A stretch of 64,000 nt of DNA from contig NZ_CP107918.1 of NCBI RefSeq assembly GCF_036014195.1, forward strand, positions 5,642,001-5,706,000, read 5' to 3'. The notes beneath the pieces were generated by a model. That model did not search any database. It saw only the letters and a list, made by a program, of their open reading frames with translations, and was not told the origin of the DNA. A program made the position numbers and the translations under genes. Below, piece after piece: positions 26,121-35,262 of the stretch. The DNA is from Streptomyces sp. NBC_00442. Lineage in GTDB: Bacteria > Actinomycetota > Actinomycetes > Streptomycetales > Streptomycetaceae. Within the stretch, counting starts at the first letter, position 1. Every line of letters starts with the position of its first letter.

Positions 26121-27173
26121 TCACGGCCCGCCGTGCGGGCGCGCGCCGGAGGTCGAACCGCGTACGACCAGCTCCGGCATGAACACGAACTCGCTGTGCG
26201 GTGCGGGGGTGCCGCCCACCTCTTCGAGCAGGGCGCGGACCGCGGCCTGGCCCATCGCCGTCACCGGCTTGCGGATCGTGGTCAGCGGTGGGTCGGTGAA
26301 CGCTATCAACGGAGAGTCGTCGAATCCCACCACAGAGATGTCGCGCGGCACGTCGAGCCCCGCCTGGCGGGCGGCCCTGATCGCGCCGAGCGCCATCATG
26401 TCGCTGGCGCACACCACCGCGGTGCAGCCCTGGGCGATCAGCGCGGAGGCGGCCGCCTGGCCGCCCTCCAGGGTGTAGAGCGAGTGCTGGATCAGGGACT
26501 CGGCTTCGGTGAGGCTCAGACCGAGCCGGTCCTGCATGCCGGCCGTGAACCCCTCGATCTTGCGCAGGACCGGCACGAAGCGCTTGGGCCCCACCGCCAG
26601 GCCGATCCTGGTGTGACCGAGCGCCGCGAGATGCGTGACGGCGAGCCGCATCGCGGCCCGGTCGTCGGGGGAGATGAAGGGCGCCTGCACCTTGGGCGAG
26701 AAGCCGTCCACCAGGACGTACGGGACGCCCTGGGCGCGCAGCTGCTCGTAGCGCTCCATGTCGGCGGTGGTGTCCGCGTGCAGCCCGGAGACGAAGATGA
26801 TCCCGGAGACGCCCCGGTCCACCAGCATCTCGGTGAGCTCGTCCTCGGTGGAGCCGCCCGGGGTCTGGGTGGCGAGCACGGGCGTGTATCCCTGCCGGGT
26901 CAGCGACTGGCCGATGACCTGGGCGAGGGCGGGGAAGATCGGGTTCTCCAGCTCCGGCGTTATCAGGCCGACGAGCCCCGCGGAGCGGCGGCGCAGTCGT
27001 ACGGGCCGCTCGTAGCCCAGCACGTCGAGTGCGGCCAGGACGGATTCGCGGGTGCCCGCGGCCACACCGGGCTTGCCGTTGAGCACGCGGCTGACTGTGG
27101 CTTCGCTGACCCCCGCCTGGGCTGCGATGTCGGCGAGCCGTGCGGTCACGGGATTGGACTGTACCGGTCGCAC
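26121..27173 (-). CDS. malR: LacI-family maltose regulator (MalR/Reg1-type), first copy
   Basis: A 350-residue repressor. The LacI DNA-binding domain is LADIAAQAGVSEATVSRVLNG (about 12-32) followed by the hinge helix region. The periplasmic-binding-like core includes GLVGLITPELENPIFP, GYTPVLATQTPGG, and ISVVGFDDSPLIAFTDPPLTT. This strongly resembles Streptomyces MalR (Reg1), which represses maltose and amylase genes and is released by maltodextrins. The start is GTG at 27173, one base after the alpha-glucosidase stop, so it is an operon member. A paralogue (34225-35262) shares most of these blocks. It probably binds the CTTGCAG-type sites in 28780-29087. Confidence 0.92.
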   Translation of the reverse strand: MRPVQSNPVTARLADIAAQAGVSEATVSRVLNGKPGVAAGTRESVLAALDVLGYERPVRLRRRSAGLVGLITPELENPIFPALAQVIGQSLTRQGYTPVLATQTPGGSTEDELTEMLVDRGVSGIIFVSGLHADTTADMERYEQLRAQGVPYVLVDGFSPKVQAPFISPDDRAAMRLAVTHLAALGHTRIGLAVGPKRFVPVLRKIEGFTAGMQDRLGLSLTEAESLIQHSLYTLEGGQAAASALIAQGCTAVVCASDMMALGAIRAARQAGLDVPRDISVVGFDDSPLIAFTDPPLTTIRKPVTAMGQAAVRALLEEVGGTPAPHSEFVFMPELVVRGSTSGARPHGGP

Positions 27174-27174
27174 G

Positions 27175-28779
<1,605 letters not shown>

Positions 28780-29087
28780 ATGTGGTCCCCTTCGTATAAC
28801 CCTGCACCTGCGGGATCGGCTGAATCAGCGGGATCAACGCCGATGGCCCCTCGAAAGTAACAGCCGTGCAAGGTCTTGCGGAAGCCTTGCAGAGATCCCG
28901 CAGGTGCGTGTGGACCAGCGATACCGCCTTTGACAAGGCGCACAACGGCAACCGTGCGGACACGCTGATGTAACGATCGACCGGCCTTGCAGAAATTCTT
29001 CGCAAGCTCTTTCGGTCGTCTTTCATCCTTGTTACGTTCCTGGCGATCCGGCGCCGTGACGGAACGGCACCCAGTGAAGGAGTTCTC
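28780..29087. promoter_or_regulatory. 308-bp divergent control region between aglA-malR and malEFG, with MalR-type sites
   Basis: Three dyads stand out. TGCAAGG...CCTTGCA has arms at 28867-28873 and 28885-28891, and contains CTTGCGG and CTTGCAG. CTTGCAGAAATTCTTCGCAAG (28986-29006) is a second near-palindrome. GCTGAATCAGC (28819-28829) is an 11-bp palindrome nearer aglA. CTTGCAG-type repeats are what I recall for the Streptomyces maltose repressor. GAAGGAG at 29076-29082 is the malE ribosome site. On the minus strand a TTATAC-like -10 lies near 28795 before aglA. Exact transcription starts cannot be placed by eye. Confidence 0.65.
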
Positions 29088-30362
29088 ATGCGACGTGGCA
29101 TAGCGGCCACCGCTATCGCGGCGACCCTCGCGCTCGCGGCGACGGCCTGCGGCGGCAGCGACAGCGATGGCGGCACGGCGGACGGGCCGGTCACCATCAC
29201 CTGGTGGGACACCTCGAACGCCACGAACGAGGCACCCACGTACCAGGCGCTGGTCACGGAGTTCGAGAAGGCGAACCCGAAGATCAAGGTCAAGTACGTC
29301 AACGTCCCCTTCGACCAGGCGCAGAACAAGTTCGACACCGCCGCGGGCGCCAAGGGCGCCCCGGACGTGCTGCGCGCCGAGGTCGGCTGGACGCCCGCGT
29401 TCGCGAAGAAGGGCTACTTCGTGCCGCTCGACGGCACCGAGGCCCTCGCCGACCAGGCCAAGTTCCGGCCCAACCTGATCAAGCAGGCCCAGTTCCAGGG
29501 CAAGACCTACGGCGTCCCGCTGGTCACCGACACCCTCGCCCTCGTCTACAACAAGGCCCTGTTCGCCCAGGCCGGCATCACCAAGGCCCCCGCCACCTGG
29601 GACGAGCTGAAGGCGGACGCCGCGCTCGTCAAGGAGAAGGCCGGCGTCGACGGCTACTGGGGCTCCACCGCCGGCTACTACGCCCAGCCGTTCCTGTACG
29701 GCGAGGGCACCGACACGGTCGACACCGCCGGCAAGAAGGTCACCATCGCAAGTGCCCCCGCCGTCAAGGGACTTGAGACCTGGAAGGGCCTGTTCGACGG
29801 TCCCGGCCTGCACAAGGCGGACGTCACCGCCGACGCGTACGCCCACATCCAGGACGCCTTCGTGAACGGCAAGGTCGCAGCGATCGTGCAGGGCCCGTGG
29901 GAGATCACCAACTTCTACAAGGGCGCCGCCTTCAAGGACAAGGCCAACCTCGGCATCGCCACCGTCCCGGCCGGCTCCACCGGCAAGGCCGGCGCCCCGA
30001 CCGGCGGCCACAACCTGTCCGTGTACGCGGGCTCCGACAAGGCGCACGCGGCCGCCGCCATGACGTTCGTCAACTTCATGACCTCGGCCAAGAGCCAGGA
30101 GACCATCGCGCTGAAGAACTCCACGCTGCCCACCCGCGAGGACGCCTACACCGCGCAGGTCAAGGCGGACCCGGGCATCGCCGGCTTCCAGGGCGTGCTC
30201 CCCGCCGCCCAGCCGCGGCCCGAGCTGCCCGAGTACAGCTCGCTGTGGACCCCGATGGACACCACCCTGCCGAAGGCCGCGGACGGCAAGGAGTCCGTCG
30301 CCGACGCCGCCAAGAGCCTTCAGCAGGACATGGCCAAGCTGGTTCCCGACTTCACCAAGTGA
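29088..30362 (+). CDS. malE: Maltose/maltodextrin-binding lipoprotein of ABC importer
   Basis: A 424-residue solute-binding protein. The signal peptide ends in the lipobox LAATAC (Cys near 21), so it is a lipoprotein on the outer face of the membrane. The mature protein starts with a Ser/Asp/Gly linker and shows the family-1 solute-binding fold, with TITWWDTSNATNEAPTYQ, FVNGKVAAIVQGPWEITNF and VNFMTSAKSQETIAL. It delivers maltodextrins to MalF-MalG; the ATPase is probably a shared MsiK-type subunit encoded elsewhere, as is known for Streptomyces. It is the first gene of malEFG with a good ribosome site and lies downstream of MalR-type operators. Confidence 0.93.
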   Translation: MRRGIAATAIAATLALAATACGGSDSDGGTADGPVTITWWDTSNATNEAPTYQALVTEFEKANPKIKVKYVNVPFDQAQNKFDTAAGAKGAPDVLRAEVGWTPAFAKKGYFVPLDGTEALADQAKFRPNLIKQAQFQGKTYGVPLVTDTLALVYNKALFAQAGITKAPATWDELKADAALVKEKAGVDGYWGSTAGYYAQPFLYGEGTDTVDTAGKKVTIASAPAVKGLETWKGLFDGPGLHKADVTADAYAHIQDAFVNGKVAAIVQGPWEITNFYKGAAFKDKANLGIATVPAGSTGKAGAPTGGHNLSVYAGSDKAHAAAAMTFVNFMTSAKSQETIALKNSTLPTREDAYTAQVKADPGIAGFQGVLPAAQPRPELPEYSSLWTPMDTTLPKAADGKESVADAAKSLQQDMAKLVPDFTK

Positions 30363-30443
30363 GCCCCGCCGCCGGGCCGTTCCCCACCCGGGGGCGGCCC
30401 GGCGGCACGCACGTCCGCCGAACTTCCCGGAAAAGGTGTCGAG

Positions 30444-31436
30444 ATGACCGTTGCCGTCGATGGCGCGGCCCCCACGAGCGCGGCCACGGCGCGCCCGGGG
30501 CCGCGGGAGCGCCTCAGGCGGTCCTGGCAGAAGCACTGGTACGCGTACGCGATGGTCGCGCCGATCGTCGTCGTCCTCGGCGTCCTGGTGCTCTATCCGC
30601 TCGTCCAGGGCGTCTACTACACGCTCACCGACGCCAACAGCCTCAACTCGGCGCGCACCATCGGCGCCAACCACATCGCGGGCACCTACGAGTTCGTCGG
30701 CCTGCACAACTACGCGGACATCCTGTGGGGGCCGACCGCCTGGGACCGGTTCTGGTCGCACTTCATCTGGACGGTGGTGTGGACCGTCGCCTGTGTGACC
30801 CTGCACTACGTCATCGGGCTCTCGCTCGCCCTGCTGCTCAACCAGAAGCTGCGCGGCCGCACCTTCTACCGGATGATGCTGATCCTGCCGTGGGCGGTGC
30901 CCACCTTCGTCACCGTCTTCTCCTGGCGCCTGATGCTCAGCGACTCCGGCATCGTGAACACCGTGCTCGGCACGCTCCACCTGCCGCAGCCCGAGTGGCT
31001 CGAACAGCCGCACTTCCAGCAGCTCGCCGCGATCCTCGTCAACACCTGGGTCGGCGTCCCCTTCATGATGGTGTCGCTGCTCGGCGGGCTCCAGACGATC
31101 CCCGCGGAGCTGTACGAGGCCGCCGAGATGGACGGCGCGAGTCCCTGGCAGCGCTTCCGCCACGTCACGCTGCCGGGCCTGCGTCCCGTGAGCGCCACCG
31201 TCGTGCTGCTCGGCATCATCTGGACGTTCAACCAGTTCGTGATCATCTTCCTGCTCTTCGGCAACGGCGGCGCCCCCGACGCCCAGATCCTCGTCACCTG
31301 GGCCTACCGGCTCGGCTTCGGACAGCAGCCCCGCGAATTCGCGCAGTCCGCCACCTACGGCGTGCTGCTGCTCTCCATCCTGATCGTCTTCTCCTCCCTC
31401 TACCGTCGCTGGCTGGCCCGCAATGAACAGGTCTGA
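30444..31436 (+). CDS. malF: Maltodextrin ABC transporter permease
   Basis: A 330-residue permease with six or so helices, and the ABC coupling loop EAAEMDGASPWQRFRHVTLPGL (EAA motif) near residue 225. The N-terminal 35 residues are cytoplasmic and Arg/Pro-rich. It lacks the large periplasmic loop of enteric MalF, as in Gram-positive relatives. AAAGG precedes the ATG at 30444. It overlaps malG by 14 bp and is transcribed with malE. Confidence 0.92.
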   Translation: MTVAVDGAAPTSAATARPGPRERLRRSWQKHWYAYAMVAPIVVVLGVLVLYPLVQGVYYTLTDANSLNSARTIGANHIAGTYEFVGLHNYADILWGPTAWDRFWSHFIWTVVWTVACVTLHYVIGLSLALLLNQKLRGRTFYRMMLILPWAVPTFVTVFSWRLMLSDSGIVNTVLGTLHLPQPEWLEQPHFQQLAAILVNTWVGVPFMMVSLLGGLQTIPAELYEAAEMDGASPWQRFRHVTLPGLRPVSATVVLLGIIWTFNQFVIIFLLFGNGGAPDAQILVTWAYRLGFGQQPREFAQSATYGVLLLSILIVFSSLYRRWLARNEQV

Positions 31437-32295
31437 TGCCCCCATGACCACCAAGGTCGTCTCCCGGGACCACGGCCGGCGCCGCACCGCGGTCCTGTCG
31501 CACCTCGCGCTGTGCCTCGCCAGTCTCGTCGCGCTCTTCCCGATCGTGTGGCTCGTCTTCGTCTCGCTCGGCCCCGACAAGGACGACTACCTGCACCCGG
31601 GCCGCATCTGGTCCAAGCTGTCCCTCTCCAACTACGCGTTCGTCACCGAGCACACCAAGTTCTTCACCTGGCTCGGCAACACCGCCTTGATCGCCGTGCT
31701 GACCTGCGTCATCGGCGTGATGTTCGCGGCGACCACCGGCTACGCGGTCTCCCGGATGCGCTTTCCCGGCTACAAGAAGCTGATGTGGGTGCTGCTCGTC
31801 ACCCAGATGTTCCCGATCGCCGTGCTGATCGTGCCGATGTACCAGATCCTCGGCGACCTCGGCCTCATCGACACCTACGGCGGCCTGATCCTCGTGTACT
31901 GCTCCACCGCGGTGCCGTACTGCGCGTGGATGCTCAAGGGCTACTTCGACACCATCCCGGTCGAGATCGACGAGGCGGGCCGCGTCGACGGGCTCAGCCC
32001 GTTCGGCACCTTCTTCCGGCTGATCCTGCCGCTCGCCCGGCCGGGCCTCGCCGTCGCCGCGTTCTACACCTGCCTCACCGCGTGGGGCGAGGTGGCGTTC
32101 GCCTCCACCTTCATGCTCGACGACAGCAAGTACACGCTCGCCGTGGGCCTTTCCAGCTTCGTCAGCGAGCACGACTCCCAGTGGAACTACATGGCCGCCA
32201 CCGCCGTGCTCATCGCCATCCCGGTCTCCGTCATCTTCTACCTGGTGCAGAAGCACCTCGTCACCGGCATGACCGCAGGCGCCACCAAGGGCTGA
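31423..32295 (+). CDS. malG: Maltodextrin ABC transporter permease
   Basis: A 290-residue permease with six helices and the EAA coupling loop DEAGRVDGLSPFGTFFRLIL near residue 185, followed by LARPGLAVAAFYTCL. It pairs with MalF. ATG at 31423 overlaps the malF end by 14 bp; an in-frame ATG at 31444 is the alternative, and neither has a clear ribosome site, which suggests translational coupling. A MITE-like hairpin follows 36 bp after the stop codon, before the second alpha-glucosidase. Confidence 0.92.
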   Translation: MNRSDAPMTTKVVSRDHGRRRTAVLSHLALCLASLVALFPIVWLVFVSLGPDKDDYLHPGRIWSKLSLSNYAFVTEHTKFFTWLGNTALIAVLTCVIGVMFAATTGYAVSRMRFPGYKKLMWVLLVTQMFPIAVLIVPMYQILGDLGLIDTYGGLILVYCSTAVPYCAWMLKGYFDTIPVEIDEAGRVDGLSPFGTFFRLILPLARPGLAVAAFYTCLTAWGEVAFASTFMLDDSKYTLAVGLSSFVSEHDSQWNYMAATAVLIAIPVSVIFYLVQKHLVTGMTAGATKG

Positions 32296-32331
32296 GCCGG
32301 GCTCCGCCCCGGCTCCGCAAGCACCAGGTAT

Positions 32332-32500
32332 CTAGGGGGTGTCTGGTGGATCAGGGCCGGGGGCGCGACGCCTGGCACGGCACCTCGCGGCGTTGCCGAA
32401 ACGCCCCGATAGCTCCGCTATCACGACGTTCCGGCGCCTTGCGATGCACCGCACCAGACGCCGCGCCCTGACCGACCCTGATCCACCAGACACCCCCTAG
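32332..32500. mobile_element. 169-bp MITE-like long hairpin with CTAG ends
   Basis: The 25-base ends are perfect inverted repeats (CTAGGGGGTGTCTGGTGGAT and its continuation at the left, and its complement up to 32500). Internally the two halves continue to pair imperfectly all the way to the centre, GATAGC-TCC-GCTATC (32408-32422). The outer CTAG may be a 4-bp target duplication or part of the end. There is no reading frame for a transposase. A non-autonomous element mobilised by an IS elsewhere is the likeliest reading; family unknown. Confidence 0.75.
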
Positions 32501-32533
32501 GGGGCCCGTGCTCCCAGACCCCGTTAGGACGAC

Positions 32534-34228
32534 ATGCCCCAGCACATCGCTGCCCCCCGCCCCCAGACCACCAGCACCCAGTGGTGGCGGGACGCCGTGA
32601 TCTACCAGGTCTATCCGCGCAGCTTCGCCGACGGGAACGGCGACGGCATGGGCGACCTCGACGGCGTGCGCGCCCGGCTGCCCTACCTGCGCGACCTCGG
32701 CGTCGACGCCGTCTGGCTCTCGCCGTTCTACGCCTCGCCGCAGGCCGACGCCGGATACGACGTCGCCGACTACCGGGCCATCGACCCGATGTTCGGCACC
32801 CTGCACGACGCCGACGCGCTGATCCGCGACGCCCACGAGCTGGGCCTGCGCATCATCGTGGACCTCGTGCCCAACCATTCCTCCGACCAGCACGAGTGGT
32901 TCAAGCGGGCCCTCGCGGAAGGCCCGGGTTCACCCCTGCGGGCCCGCTACCACTTCCGGCCCGGCAAGGGCGAGGACGGTCAACTCCCGCCCAACGACTG
33001 GGAGTCCATCTTTGGCGGGCCCGCCTGGACCCGTACCGAGGCGCCGTCAGGCGATGGGGGCACCTCCCAGCCGGAGGCTGGGGGAGAGTGGTACCTGCAC
33101 CTCTTCGCCCCCGAGCAGCCCGACCTCAACTGGGACCACCCCGCGGTCGCCGACGAGTTCCGCTCCATCCTGCGCTTCTGGCTCGACATGGGCGTCGACG
33201 GCTTCCGCATCGACGTCGCCCACGGCCTCGTCAAGGCGCCGGGCCTGCCCGACATCGGCGGCCACGACCAGCTCAAGCTGCTCGGCCACGACGCCATGCC
33301 GTTCTTCGACCAGGACGGCGTGCACGAGATCTACCGCTCGTGGCGCACCATCCTGGACGAGTACGACGGCGAGCGCATAGCCGTCGCCGAGGCGTGGACC
33401 CCCACGGTCGAGCGGACCGCGAACTACGTACGCCCCGACGAACTGCACCAGGCCTTCAACTTCCAGTACCTGGGCGCCCCTTGGGACGCGAAGGCGCTGC
33501 GCGACGTCATCGACGTGTCGCTCGCCGCGATGCGGCCGGTCGGCGCCCCCGCCACCTGGGTCCTGTCCAACCACGACGTGACCCGGCACGCCACCCGCTT
33601 CGCCAACCCGCCGGGCCTCGGCACCCAGCTGCGCACCCCGGGCGACCGCGAACTCGGGCTGCGCCGGGCCCGCGCGGCCACCCTCCTCATGCTGGCCCTG
33701 CCGGGCTCGGCCTACGTCTACCAGGGCGAGGAGCTGGGCCTTCCCGACGTCACCGACCTGCCCGACGAGGTGCGCCAGGACCCGTCGTTCCTGCGCGCGG
33801 CCGGCCAGGACGGGTTCCGCGACGGCTGCCGCGTCCCCATCCCGTGGACCGTCGAGGGCACCTCGTACGGCTTCGGCAGCGGCTGCAGCTGGCTCCCGCA
33901 GCCCGACACCTGGGGCGGCCTCAGCGTCGAGGCGCAGACCGGCGACGCGGACTCCACCCTTGAGCTGTACCGCCGGGCCATCGCGGCCCGCCGCGCCCAC
34001 CCGGGCCTCGGCGCCGGGAGCGACGTCGAGTGGCTGGAGGCGCCCGACGGCGTGCTCGCCTTCGCCCGCGAGGGCTTCGTGTGCACGGTCAACCTCACCG
34101 GACGCCTCGTATCGCTGCCGGTGCCCGGCCGGGTCGTCCTGGCCAGCGGCCCCTTCACGGTGGACGCCGCGGTGGACGGCGACCACGTCGAGCTCCCCGG
34201 TGACACGACGGTGTGGTGGACGGTGTGA
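32534..34228 (+). CDS. GH13 alpha-glucosidase, second copy, with in-frame repeat insertion
   Basis: A 564-residue cytoplasmic alpha-glucosidase, a paralogue of the one at 27175-28779. Shared motifs: WWRDAVIYQVYPRSFADGNG, LVPNHSSDQH, GFRIDVAHGLVK (nucleophile), IAVAEAWTP (acid/base) and WVLSNHDVTRH. Between WTR and WYLHLF it has about 13 more residues than its paralogue (including GDGGTSQPEAGG), encoded by a palindromic repeat at 33056-33088. It also has an extra PPGLGTQLRTPGDRELG segment near residue 360. AGGA precedes the ATG at 32534. It lies after malG and the hairpin element and overlaps the second regulator gene. Confidence 0.93.
   Translation: MPQHIAAPRPQTTSTQWWRDAVIYQVYPRSFADGNGDGMGDLDGVRARLPYLRDLGVDAVWLSPFYASPQADAGYDVADYRAIDPMFGTLHDADALIRDAHELGLRIIVDLVPNHSSDQHEWFKRALAEGPGSPLRARYHFRPGKGEDGQLPPNDWESIFGGPAWTRTEAPSGDGGTSQPEAGGEWYLHLFAPEQPDLNWDHPAVADEFRSILRFWLDMGVDGFRIDVAHGLVKAPGLPDIGGHDQLKLLGHDAMPFFDQDGVHEIYRSWRTILDEYDGERIAVAEAWTPTVERTANYVRPDELHQAFNFQYLGAPWDAKALRDVIDVSLAAMRPVGAPATWVLSNHDVTRHATRFANPPGLGTQLRTPGDRELGLRRARAATLLMLALPGSAYVYQGEELGLPDVTDLPDEVRQDPSFLRAAGQDGFRDGCRVPIPWTVEGTSYGFGSGCSWLPQPDTWGGLSVEAQTGDADSTLELYRRAIAARRAHPGLGAGSDVEWLEAPDGVLAFAREGFVCTVNLTGRLVSLPVPGRVVLASGPFTVDAAVDGDHVELPGDTTVWWTV
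33056..33088 (+). repeat. Palindromic repeat inside the alpha-glucosidase coding frame
   Basis: GGGGGCACCTCCCAGCCGGA then GGCTGGGGGAG forms a stem (CTCCCAGCC against GGCTGGG-GAG) typical of short palindromes scattered in Streptomyces genomes as I recall them. Here it lies in frame, adding residues near GDGGTSQPEAGG without a stop or frameshift. The paralogue lacks it. Confidence 0.85.
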
Positions 34229-35262
34229 GCCATGCCGCGCAGCCGGGCGGCCCGCGCCTCGCCGACATCGCGGCCCAGGCCGCGGTCAGCGAGGCCACCG
34301 TCAGCCGTGTGCTCAACGGGAAGCCCGGGGTCGCCGATGCCACCCGGCAGCGGGTGCTCGCCGCCCTCGACGTCCTGGGCCGCGAGCGCCCGGCCCGGCT
34401 GCGCCGGCGCAGCGAAGGGCTGATCGGTCTGGTCACCCCGGAGCTGACCAACCCGATCTTCCCCGCCTTCGCCCAGGCGGTGGAGCAGGTCCTCGCCGGC
34501 CACGGCTACACCCCCGTCCTGTGCACCCAACTGCCGGGCGGGGCAACGGAGGACGAGCTGGTCGAGCAGCTGGAGGAGCGCGGCGTCAACGGCATCGTGT
34601 TCCTTTCAGGACTGCACGCCGACACCTCCACCGACCCGGCCCGCTATCTGGCCCTGGCCGAACGGGGCATCCCCTACGTCCTGGTCAACGGCTACAACGA
34701 AGCGCTGCGCGGCCCGTTCGTCTCGCCCGACGACCACGCGGCGATGCGGATGGCGGTGGGCCACCTCGCCGACCTCGGGCACACCCGGATCGGCCTCGCG
34801 ATCGGACCGCTGCGGTACGTGCCCTCCCGCCGCAAGTGCGAGGGGTTCACGGCCGCGCTGGGCCAGCGGCTCGGCCTGCGCGAACCGGAGGCGGCGGCCT
34901 GGATCCGGCCCACCCTCTACAGCGTGGAGGGCGGCCAGGTGGCGGCGGGCGCCCTGCTCGACCAGGGCTGCACCGGCATCGTCTGCGGCAGCGACATGAT
35001 GGCGCTCGGCGTGGTGCGCGCCGCGCGCGAACGCGGCCTGACGGTGCCGGGCGACGTCTCGGTGGTCGGCTTCGACGACTCCCAGCTCATCGCCTTCACC
35101 GACCCGCCCCTGACCACGGTCCGCCAGCCCGTCCAGGCCATGGCCACGGCCGCCGTCTCGGCCCTCCTGGAGGAAATCGCCGGAACCCCGGTCCAACGCA
35201 CGGAGTTCGTCTTCCAGCCGGAGCTGGTCGTGCGGGCATCGACGGCGCGCGTACGGAAGTGA
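34225..35262 (+). CDS. LacI-family maltose regulator, second MalR-type copy
   Basis: A 345-residue LacI-type repressor. The helix-turn-helix LADIAAQAAVSEATVSRVLNG differs at only one position from that of the first copy over this stretch, so both may bind the same operators. The core has GLIGLVTPELTNPIFP, GYTPVLCTQLPGG and VSVVGFDDSQLIAFTDPPLTT, again parallel to the first copy. The effector-domain residues around FVSPDDHAAMRMA versus FISPDDRAAMRLA differ. The start is GTG at 34225, overlapping the alpha-glucosidase stop (GTGTGA); GTGs at 34213 and 34216 are alternatives. It is translationally coupled. Confidence 0.9.
   Translation: MSHAAQPGGPRLADIAAQAAVSEATVSRVLNGKPGVADATRQRVLAALDVLGRERPARLRRRSEGLIGLVTPELTNPIFPAFAQAVEQVLAGHGYTPVLCTQLPGGATEDELVEQLEERGVNGIVFLSGLHADTSTDPARYLALAERGIPYVLVNGYNEALRGPFVSPDDHAAMRMAVGHLADLGHTRIGLAIGPLRYVPSRRKCEGFTAALGQRLGLREPEAAAWIRPTLYSVEGGQVAAGALLDQGCTGIVCGSDMMALGVVRAARERGLTVPGDVSVVGFDDSQLIAFTDPPLTTVRQPVQAMATAAVSALLEEIAGTPVQRTEFVFQPELVVRASTARVRK

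Follow-up and report, generated by a model that had tools for sequence, protein, structure and literature searches.

A widespread MITE family with a conserved RNA-like core and changing ends, represented by a recent insertion in a Streptomyces maltose operon

Bacterial MITEs such as the Correia and ERIC elements are short and have no transposase gene; they carry terminal inverted repeats, are bordered by a doubled target, occur in many copies and give rise to foldback RNA. The REP and BIME palindromes, which are moved by RAYT, are imperfect hairpins with conserved internal mismatches and are commoner at the 3' ends of genes. Within the IS5 family of insertion sequences (IS), the DUF4096-type transposases belong to the IS427 group. 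Cleavage by RNase III of transcripts that contain Correia elements is described in a review whose main text (PMC10969869) does not contain the word Streptomyces. No published description of the element treated below, or of its core, was found in the literature searched.

This element is located in the maltose operon of Streptomyces sp. NBC_00442, in the stretch of 64,000 nucleotides that was analysed (the window). It has general MITE features in common with the Correia and ERIC elements, but unlike them it has a core that is common to many tip classes and that covaries as a strand-biased RNA hairpin. The imperfect hairpin with conserved internal mismatches is shared with REP and BIME sequences, whereas the doubled target and the DDE-type ends set the element apart. 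Its CTAGGNNNTGTC-type tips and CTAG edges are those of the DUF4096-type IS5 family, for which like-ended IS were identified at three loci (L333, L282 and L139). The IS of this family differ in that the core was present in 4 of 70 transposase loci and, where it could be placed, beside the IS: three copies adjoin the IS by position and the fourth, in L308, is about 1 kb from the transposase domain.

A sequence-only reading of the window had described a hairpin of 169 bp at 32332-32500, with perfect 25-bp ends, a loop of three bases, CTAG on either edge and no transposase, between malG and a co-oriented second alpha-glucosidase gene. Direct reading bore out the hairpin and its place between these two genes. 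The features are as follows, the two neighbouring genes being named after that reading, from their translations.

32332..32500, no strand: whole MITE including both CTAG target copies, 169 bp (from the sequence, the genome copies, the empty site and the folds)
32332..32335, no strand: left CTAG target copy, or TA duplicated inside CTAG (a lone CCAG stands in the empty site of genome G328)
32497..32500, no strand: right CTAG target copy (from the empty-site comparison)
32332..32356, plus strand: perfect 25-bp terminal inverted repeat on the left, counting the target copy, CTAGGGGGTGTCTGGTGGATCAGGG
32476..32500, minus strand: perfect 25-bp terminal inverted repeat on the right, counting the target copy, the exact reverse complement of CTAGGGGGTGTCTGGTGGATCAGGG
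32361..32467, minus strand: conserved core on its canonical strand (covariance model R1, 108.2 bits)
32435..32445, minus strand: conserved internal loop, 5' side, with motif ATCGCAAGGCG
32384..32395, minus strand: conserved internal loop, 3' side, with motif CAACGCCGCGAG
31423..32295, plus strand: malG, upstream neighbour
32534..34228, plus strand: second alpha-glucosidase gene, downstream neighbour
26121..27173 and 27175..28779, minus strand, with 32534..34228 and 34213..35262, plus strand: mirror-order genes of the maltose locus

Folded as RNA, the 169-bp element reached -153.9 kcal/mol on the minus strand (z -16.33) and -116.0 kcal/mol on the plus strand (z -12.55), with 0 of 200 shuffles as stable in either case and an apical loop of three bases in both folds. 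A scan of positions 32200-32700 yielded no promoter-like and no U-run terminator-like sites. Two open reading frames of at least 180 amino acids overlap the element besides the malG and glucosidase frames (31512-32471 on the plus strand and 32351-32893 on the minus strand); neither matched a Pfam family, in agreement with the earlier statement that no transposase is encoded here. The locus as a whole (26121-35262) appears symmetric by eye, the transporter genes being flanked in mirror order by an alpha-glucosidase gene (27175-28779, minus strand, and 32534-34228, plus strand) and a gene for a LacI-type regulator (26121-27173, minus strand, and 34213-35262, plus strand).

The hairpin is a real insertion that arrived fairly recently. 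Among 392 genomes of the genus, the best match after the own genome was G328, with 96% identity over query bases 1-640 and an alignment that breaks at the element. The empty site in G328 has GGTACCCAGGGGGCCC in place of the GGTATCTAGGGGG...CCCCCTAGGGGGCCC of the window, which corresponds to a net gain of 165 bp, with CTAG doubled in the window and a single CCAG in G328. Since one CTAG (or its TA) is the duplicated target, the transposed unit is 161 bp long if CTAG was duplicated and 163 bp if TA was; both duplication lengths fit the G328 site. The element was absent from all 58 orthologous malG-glucosidase loci examined, which comprise two sets of 29 with the own genome excluded and three genomes counted twice.

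Copies of the element were abundant elsewhere in the genus. The own genome (7.73 Mb) contains, in addition to the maltose-locus copy, one diverged copy of 73% identity (C1:5068587), and matches at E <= 0.001 were obtained in 121 of 150 genus genomes, the own genome included, with multiple copies in G147, G056 and others. Equal-scoring multiple copies were observed within single genomes. The element was also present in 50 plasmid records, all from Streptomycetaceae, the best plasmid copy being 89.9% identical and overlapping no annotated gene. No match to the element was found in the phages searched; the sole exact motif match among viral contigs was at L540:1256-1317, on a contig of 49,740 bases. 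The sequence-only reading had offered a recent non-autonomous transposon as one possibility, to be judged by copies elsewhere, empty sites and an IS with the same ends, and to be given up if no genome held another copy and all relatives shared the same ancestral sequence. The copies in other genomes, the G328 empty site, the unfilled orthologues and the like-ended IS described below all support the transposon interpretation, and the attempt to refute it failed.

Several copies had unusual structures or surroundings. In G004 we observed deletion derivatives of 39-85 bp that retain little beyond the two tips (L068, L069, L071, L075, L077, L078 and L079). A pair of tips 3.2 kb apart in the same genome was considered as a single element and rejected; it reads as an isolated tip plus an independent 60-bp derivative, and inspection of the list of open reading frames by eye revealed no transposase. 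The copy in G070 (L006, near 1501-1666) lies midway between the arms of an extended, perfect inverted repeat (142 bases aligned per arm), which is either an assembly artefact or a duplication. At L050:1500, L022:1500 and L116:2334 the copies are directly adjacent to one end of an IS-type element, with which they have CTAG in common, as if earlier insertions create new targets.

To search beyond the genus, we used covariance model R1, which was built from own-genus copies only, the maltose-locus core being one of the 74 copies used; the opposite strand of this core (32362-32468, plus) scored 31.3 bits. In the order the model matched 207 of the 245 genomes that were sampled, six of the 207 being from outside the genus. 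In the class it matched 82 of 296 genomes, and the own genus accounts for 26 of these 82. The matches in the class were distributed over 25 of 114 genera and, among the matches listed, over at least 13 families besides the own. Copy numbers from these scans are lower bounds because the candidates scored per genome were limited to 15 for the order and 13 for the class. Exact matches to the core motifs were found at no fewer than 119 loci: among the matches listed were Nocardioides, Rathayibacter, Pseudonocardia, Microbacterium and Kribbella and, outside the phylum, Delftia, Acidovorax and Allofranklinella. From 80 of these loci we obtained arm counts for the 19 outside Streptomycetaceae, while the other 39 gave names only; all 22 exact-motif loci tested were also matched by model R1. 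Three elements in Comamonadaceae (L431:171-437, L445:5537-5803 and L447:2234-2503) were 267-270 bp long, and their 20-bp tips matched each other at all 20 positions or at 19. The model detected a second core in opposite orientation in L445 and L447 and not in L431, and the model matches per genome were 4 (L431), 3 (L445) and 24 (L447). One further exact motif match, L497, is on a contig titled MAG Vicinamibacteria and would add another phylum if real. The element is a member of a widespread MITE family in which an RNA-like core is conserved while the ends change.

By its tips and CTAG target, the maltose-locus element is a MITE of IS5-family type. The like-ended IS at L333 and L282 encode DUF4096 and DDE domains and match the NCBIfam IS5 model (NF033580). 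L333 has 918 bp between its ends and two overlapping transposase frames; its right end, the best-fitting single end, differs by eye from that of the maltose-locus element at 2 of 25 positions, and its left end fits less well, with 4 mismatches of 19. At L326 the element's own tip, with 0 mismatches at 19 specified bases, adjoins by eye the remnant of a transposase C-terminus, and the L139 end is identical to that of the MITE L254 over the 26 bases compared. L139:829-2498 (G115) is itself a 1.67-kb IS5-type element with matching ends, in which a methyltransferase-like gene, named by eye, is next to the transposase. IS with like ends are therefore present in other genomes; within the own genome no IS carried the maltose-locus tip within 3 mismatches of 22.

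To quantify these similarities, we compared the 186 tips of 93 elements with the 70 transposase loci, masking the tips of MITEs that adjoin IS elements. At least 18 of 20 bases matched at 25 sites in 19 loci, at least 19 at 7 sites and all 20 at 1 site, as compared with 0 sites at the 18-base threshold for reversed tips and 0, 0 and 1 for three shuffles. A threshold of 17 of 20 is weak alone because 5 reversed-tip sites reach it. The IS ends at 18 of 20 or better were matched by 3 of 23 tip classes, T00, T01 and T04, which comprise 58 of the 93 elements, while the other 20 classes had no such IS end among the 70 loci. T00, the class of the maltose-locus element, has its sites at this threshold in DUF4096 loci (controls 0-1), and DUF4096-type IS5 elements have CTAG/TA as their target.

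The sequence-only reading missed the core, which is conserved and strand-specific and is the more interesting part of the element. The 110 copies contain a core of about 107 nt with near-invariant ATCGCAAGGCG and CAACGCNGCGAG motifs. For the structural analysis 74 of the 110 were kept, L211, L212, L271 and near-identical cores being left out. RNAalifold predicted 33 pairs, 20 of them with compensatory change, and 97.1% of the cells at these positions were paired. Double changes were observed in 335 cells as compared with 99.4 in shuffled alignments, and 0 of 500 shuffles, which ignore relatedness, reached any of five measures; the covariation score was 0.443 as compared with at most 0.133 when the partners were slid. 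Some unpaired bases were near-invariant, for example at columns 28-30 (AAG) and 77-78 (AA). Covarying structure with conserved unpaired bases is also a property of the structured RNAs in Rfam, but no Rfam family reached its gathering score on a core (29 sources), the best being mir-1397 with 22.4 bits against the 70 needed. The likeness of CGCAAGG to twister-sister ribozymes received no support from Rfam and was dropped.

The pairing is asymmetric between strands. With the motif strand taken as canonical, the core pairs included 425 G·U cells and 20 A·C cells, and each of the 74 copies was more stable as the canonical RNA, with a mean margin of 22.4 kcal/mol. In the arms outside the core the counts were 111 G·U versus 29 A·C for 93 elements, and 88 versus 17 for the 19 elements outside Streptomycetaceae, in all 19 of which the canonical strand was the more stable. 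The tips alone also had an excess of G·U (59 versus 25 A·C), so the bias is not special to the core. When mapped on the core tree, single changes from Watson-Crick pairs led to G·U 41 times and to A·C 19 times, a modest bias, and a cruder tree gave 49 versus 19 events. Plain C>T mutation bias was not supported as the cause since the excess was missing from unpaired columns: C>T changes giving G·U and G>A changes giving A·C numbered 32 and 9 in paired columns, while the corresponding changes in unpaired columns numbered 32 and 36 (Fisher p 0.0024). The body of the core looks selected as a one-stranded RNA hairpin, its action as RNA being suggested by this pattern of evolution.

Outside the core, the outer 20 bp or so fell into 23 tip classes among the 93 elements with clean tips, the 17 of 110 without clean tips being excluded; the number derives from one clustering, in which T10 probably represents T05 shifted in register and T00 combines several tips. 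Different tip classes occurred on cores that were 96-99% identical (L254 versus L277, L231 versus L229), and the identities of core and tip were only weakly correlated (r = 0.18 for 5460 pairs, some tips being badly placed). On core trees built from about 107 nt, tip class changed 29 times, as compared with a minimum of 22 and a shuffled mean of 48.6. The tip classes thus follow the core tree more than expected by chance, so that much of the tip diversity may be due to divergence and not exchange; from the sequences, both processes may have contributed.

We also examined the orientation of the elements relative to neighbouring genes. At the maltose locus the minus strand is the canonical one and runs antisense to the maltose genes. 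In one survey the canonical strand was sense to both flanking genes in 18 cases and antisense to both in 35 (p 0.027), and the 3'-side gene was antisense in 68 of 99; a second survey gave 18 sense and 25 antisense (p 0.36). The two surveys, both based on crude gene calls, disagree, and orientation to the neighbours is not consistent; co-transcription of the canonical strand with them was supported by neither. Elements were located between convergent genes more often than between divergent genes (24 versus 11 and 22 versus 5 in the two surveys), as expected if promoters are avoided.

The sequence-only reading had also proposed that the hairpin uncouples expression of the transporter and the glucosidase or serves as an RNase III site. 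Such a hairpin, kept for the maltose operon, is very improbable: although the co-transcribed plus strand is also very stable (-116 kcal/mol) and RNase III cleavage has been reported for Correia-containing transcripts (PMC10969869, in the text cited above), none of the 58 orthologous loci contains the element, no terminator-like site is present, and the strand co-transcribed with the maltose genes gives the weaker hairpin, which makes these regulatory readings less simple than proposed. Any effect of the element on the maltose genes is putative and probably incidental.

The conserved body could also be explained without any RNA. If this were an ordinary MITE, the body would be a palindromic spacer, conserved by recent horizontal spread and with its pairing kept by hairpin-templated correction of the DNA. 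The plasmid copies and the equal-scoring copies within one genome are in line with such spread, the core tree is partly followed by the tip classes, and the G004 derivatives keep little but tips, so that movement may be possible without the body. Correction of DNA is expected to yield Watson-Crick palindromes, yet G·U pairs have been kept, as have the same asymmetric internal loops, with a bias to one strand across families that extends to Comamonadaceae, and we regard this explanation as unlikely. Alternatively, the core may act as DNA, as a subterminal or cruciform site bound in transposition by the transposase or a host protein. Its near-invariant short motifs look like binding sites, and 93 of the 110 core copies have clean tips around them, but duplex DNA gives no grounds for one strand to favour G·T over A·C, the IS elements are mostly without the core (present in 4 of 70 transposase loci) and tip-only derivatives exist; we give such a DNA site little credence.

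We consider it likely that the maltose-locus element is a non-autonomous IS5-type MITE that inserted at CTAG, with a conserved body whose canonical strand, once transcribed, functions as a hairpin of RNA or is recognised as one. The insertion between malG and the glucosidase gene, seen in the empty site and the doubled target, would have followed the split from the 96%-identical relative, and an IS5-family (DUF4096/DDE) transposase, of which none with matching ends was detected in the own genome, would have moved the element in trans by way of its tips. The body is a hairpin module conserved in MITEs with different tips rather than a decayed transposase gene, with covariation, conserved internal loops and a strand-specific preference for G·U over A·C. 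Its canonical strand, here the minus strand, would be transcribed and then function or be recognised as an RNA hairpin. The tips appear to change faster than the body and were perhaps recruited from the ends of other IS lineages, one arm being copied onto the other through the hairpin. More tentatively, with somewhat less than even probability, the core may represent a new functional RNA family across Actinomycetota and Comamonadaceae, residing in MITEs whose ends are swapped between IS lineages. In that case, one RNA module would be exploiting an entire radiation of IS5-type transposases.

MITEs are usually described as shrunken insertion sequences, the insides of which are of no importance. 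Here, the conserved part is the inside, which looks selected as RNA on one strand, occurs across phyla and seems slower to change than the ends. If the RNA works, it would account for the persistence of a non-autonomous element without a fixed transposase, and a hairpin present in 207 of the 245 genomes from the order would gain a testable function.
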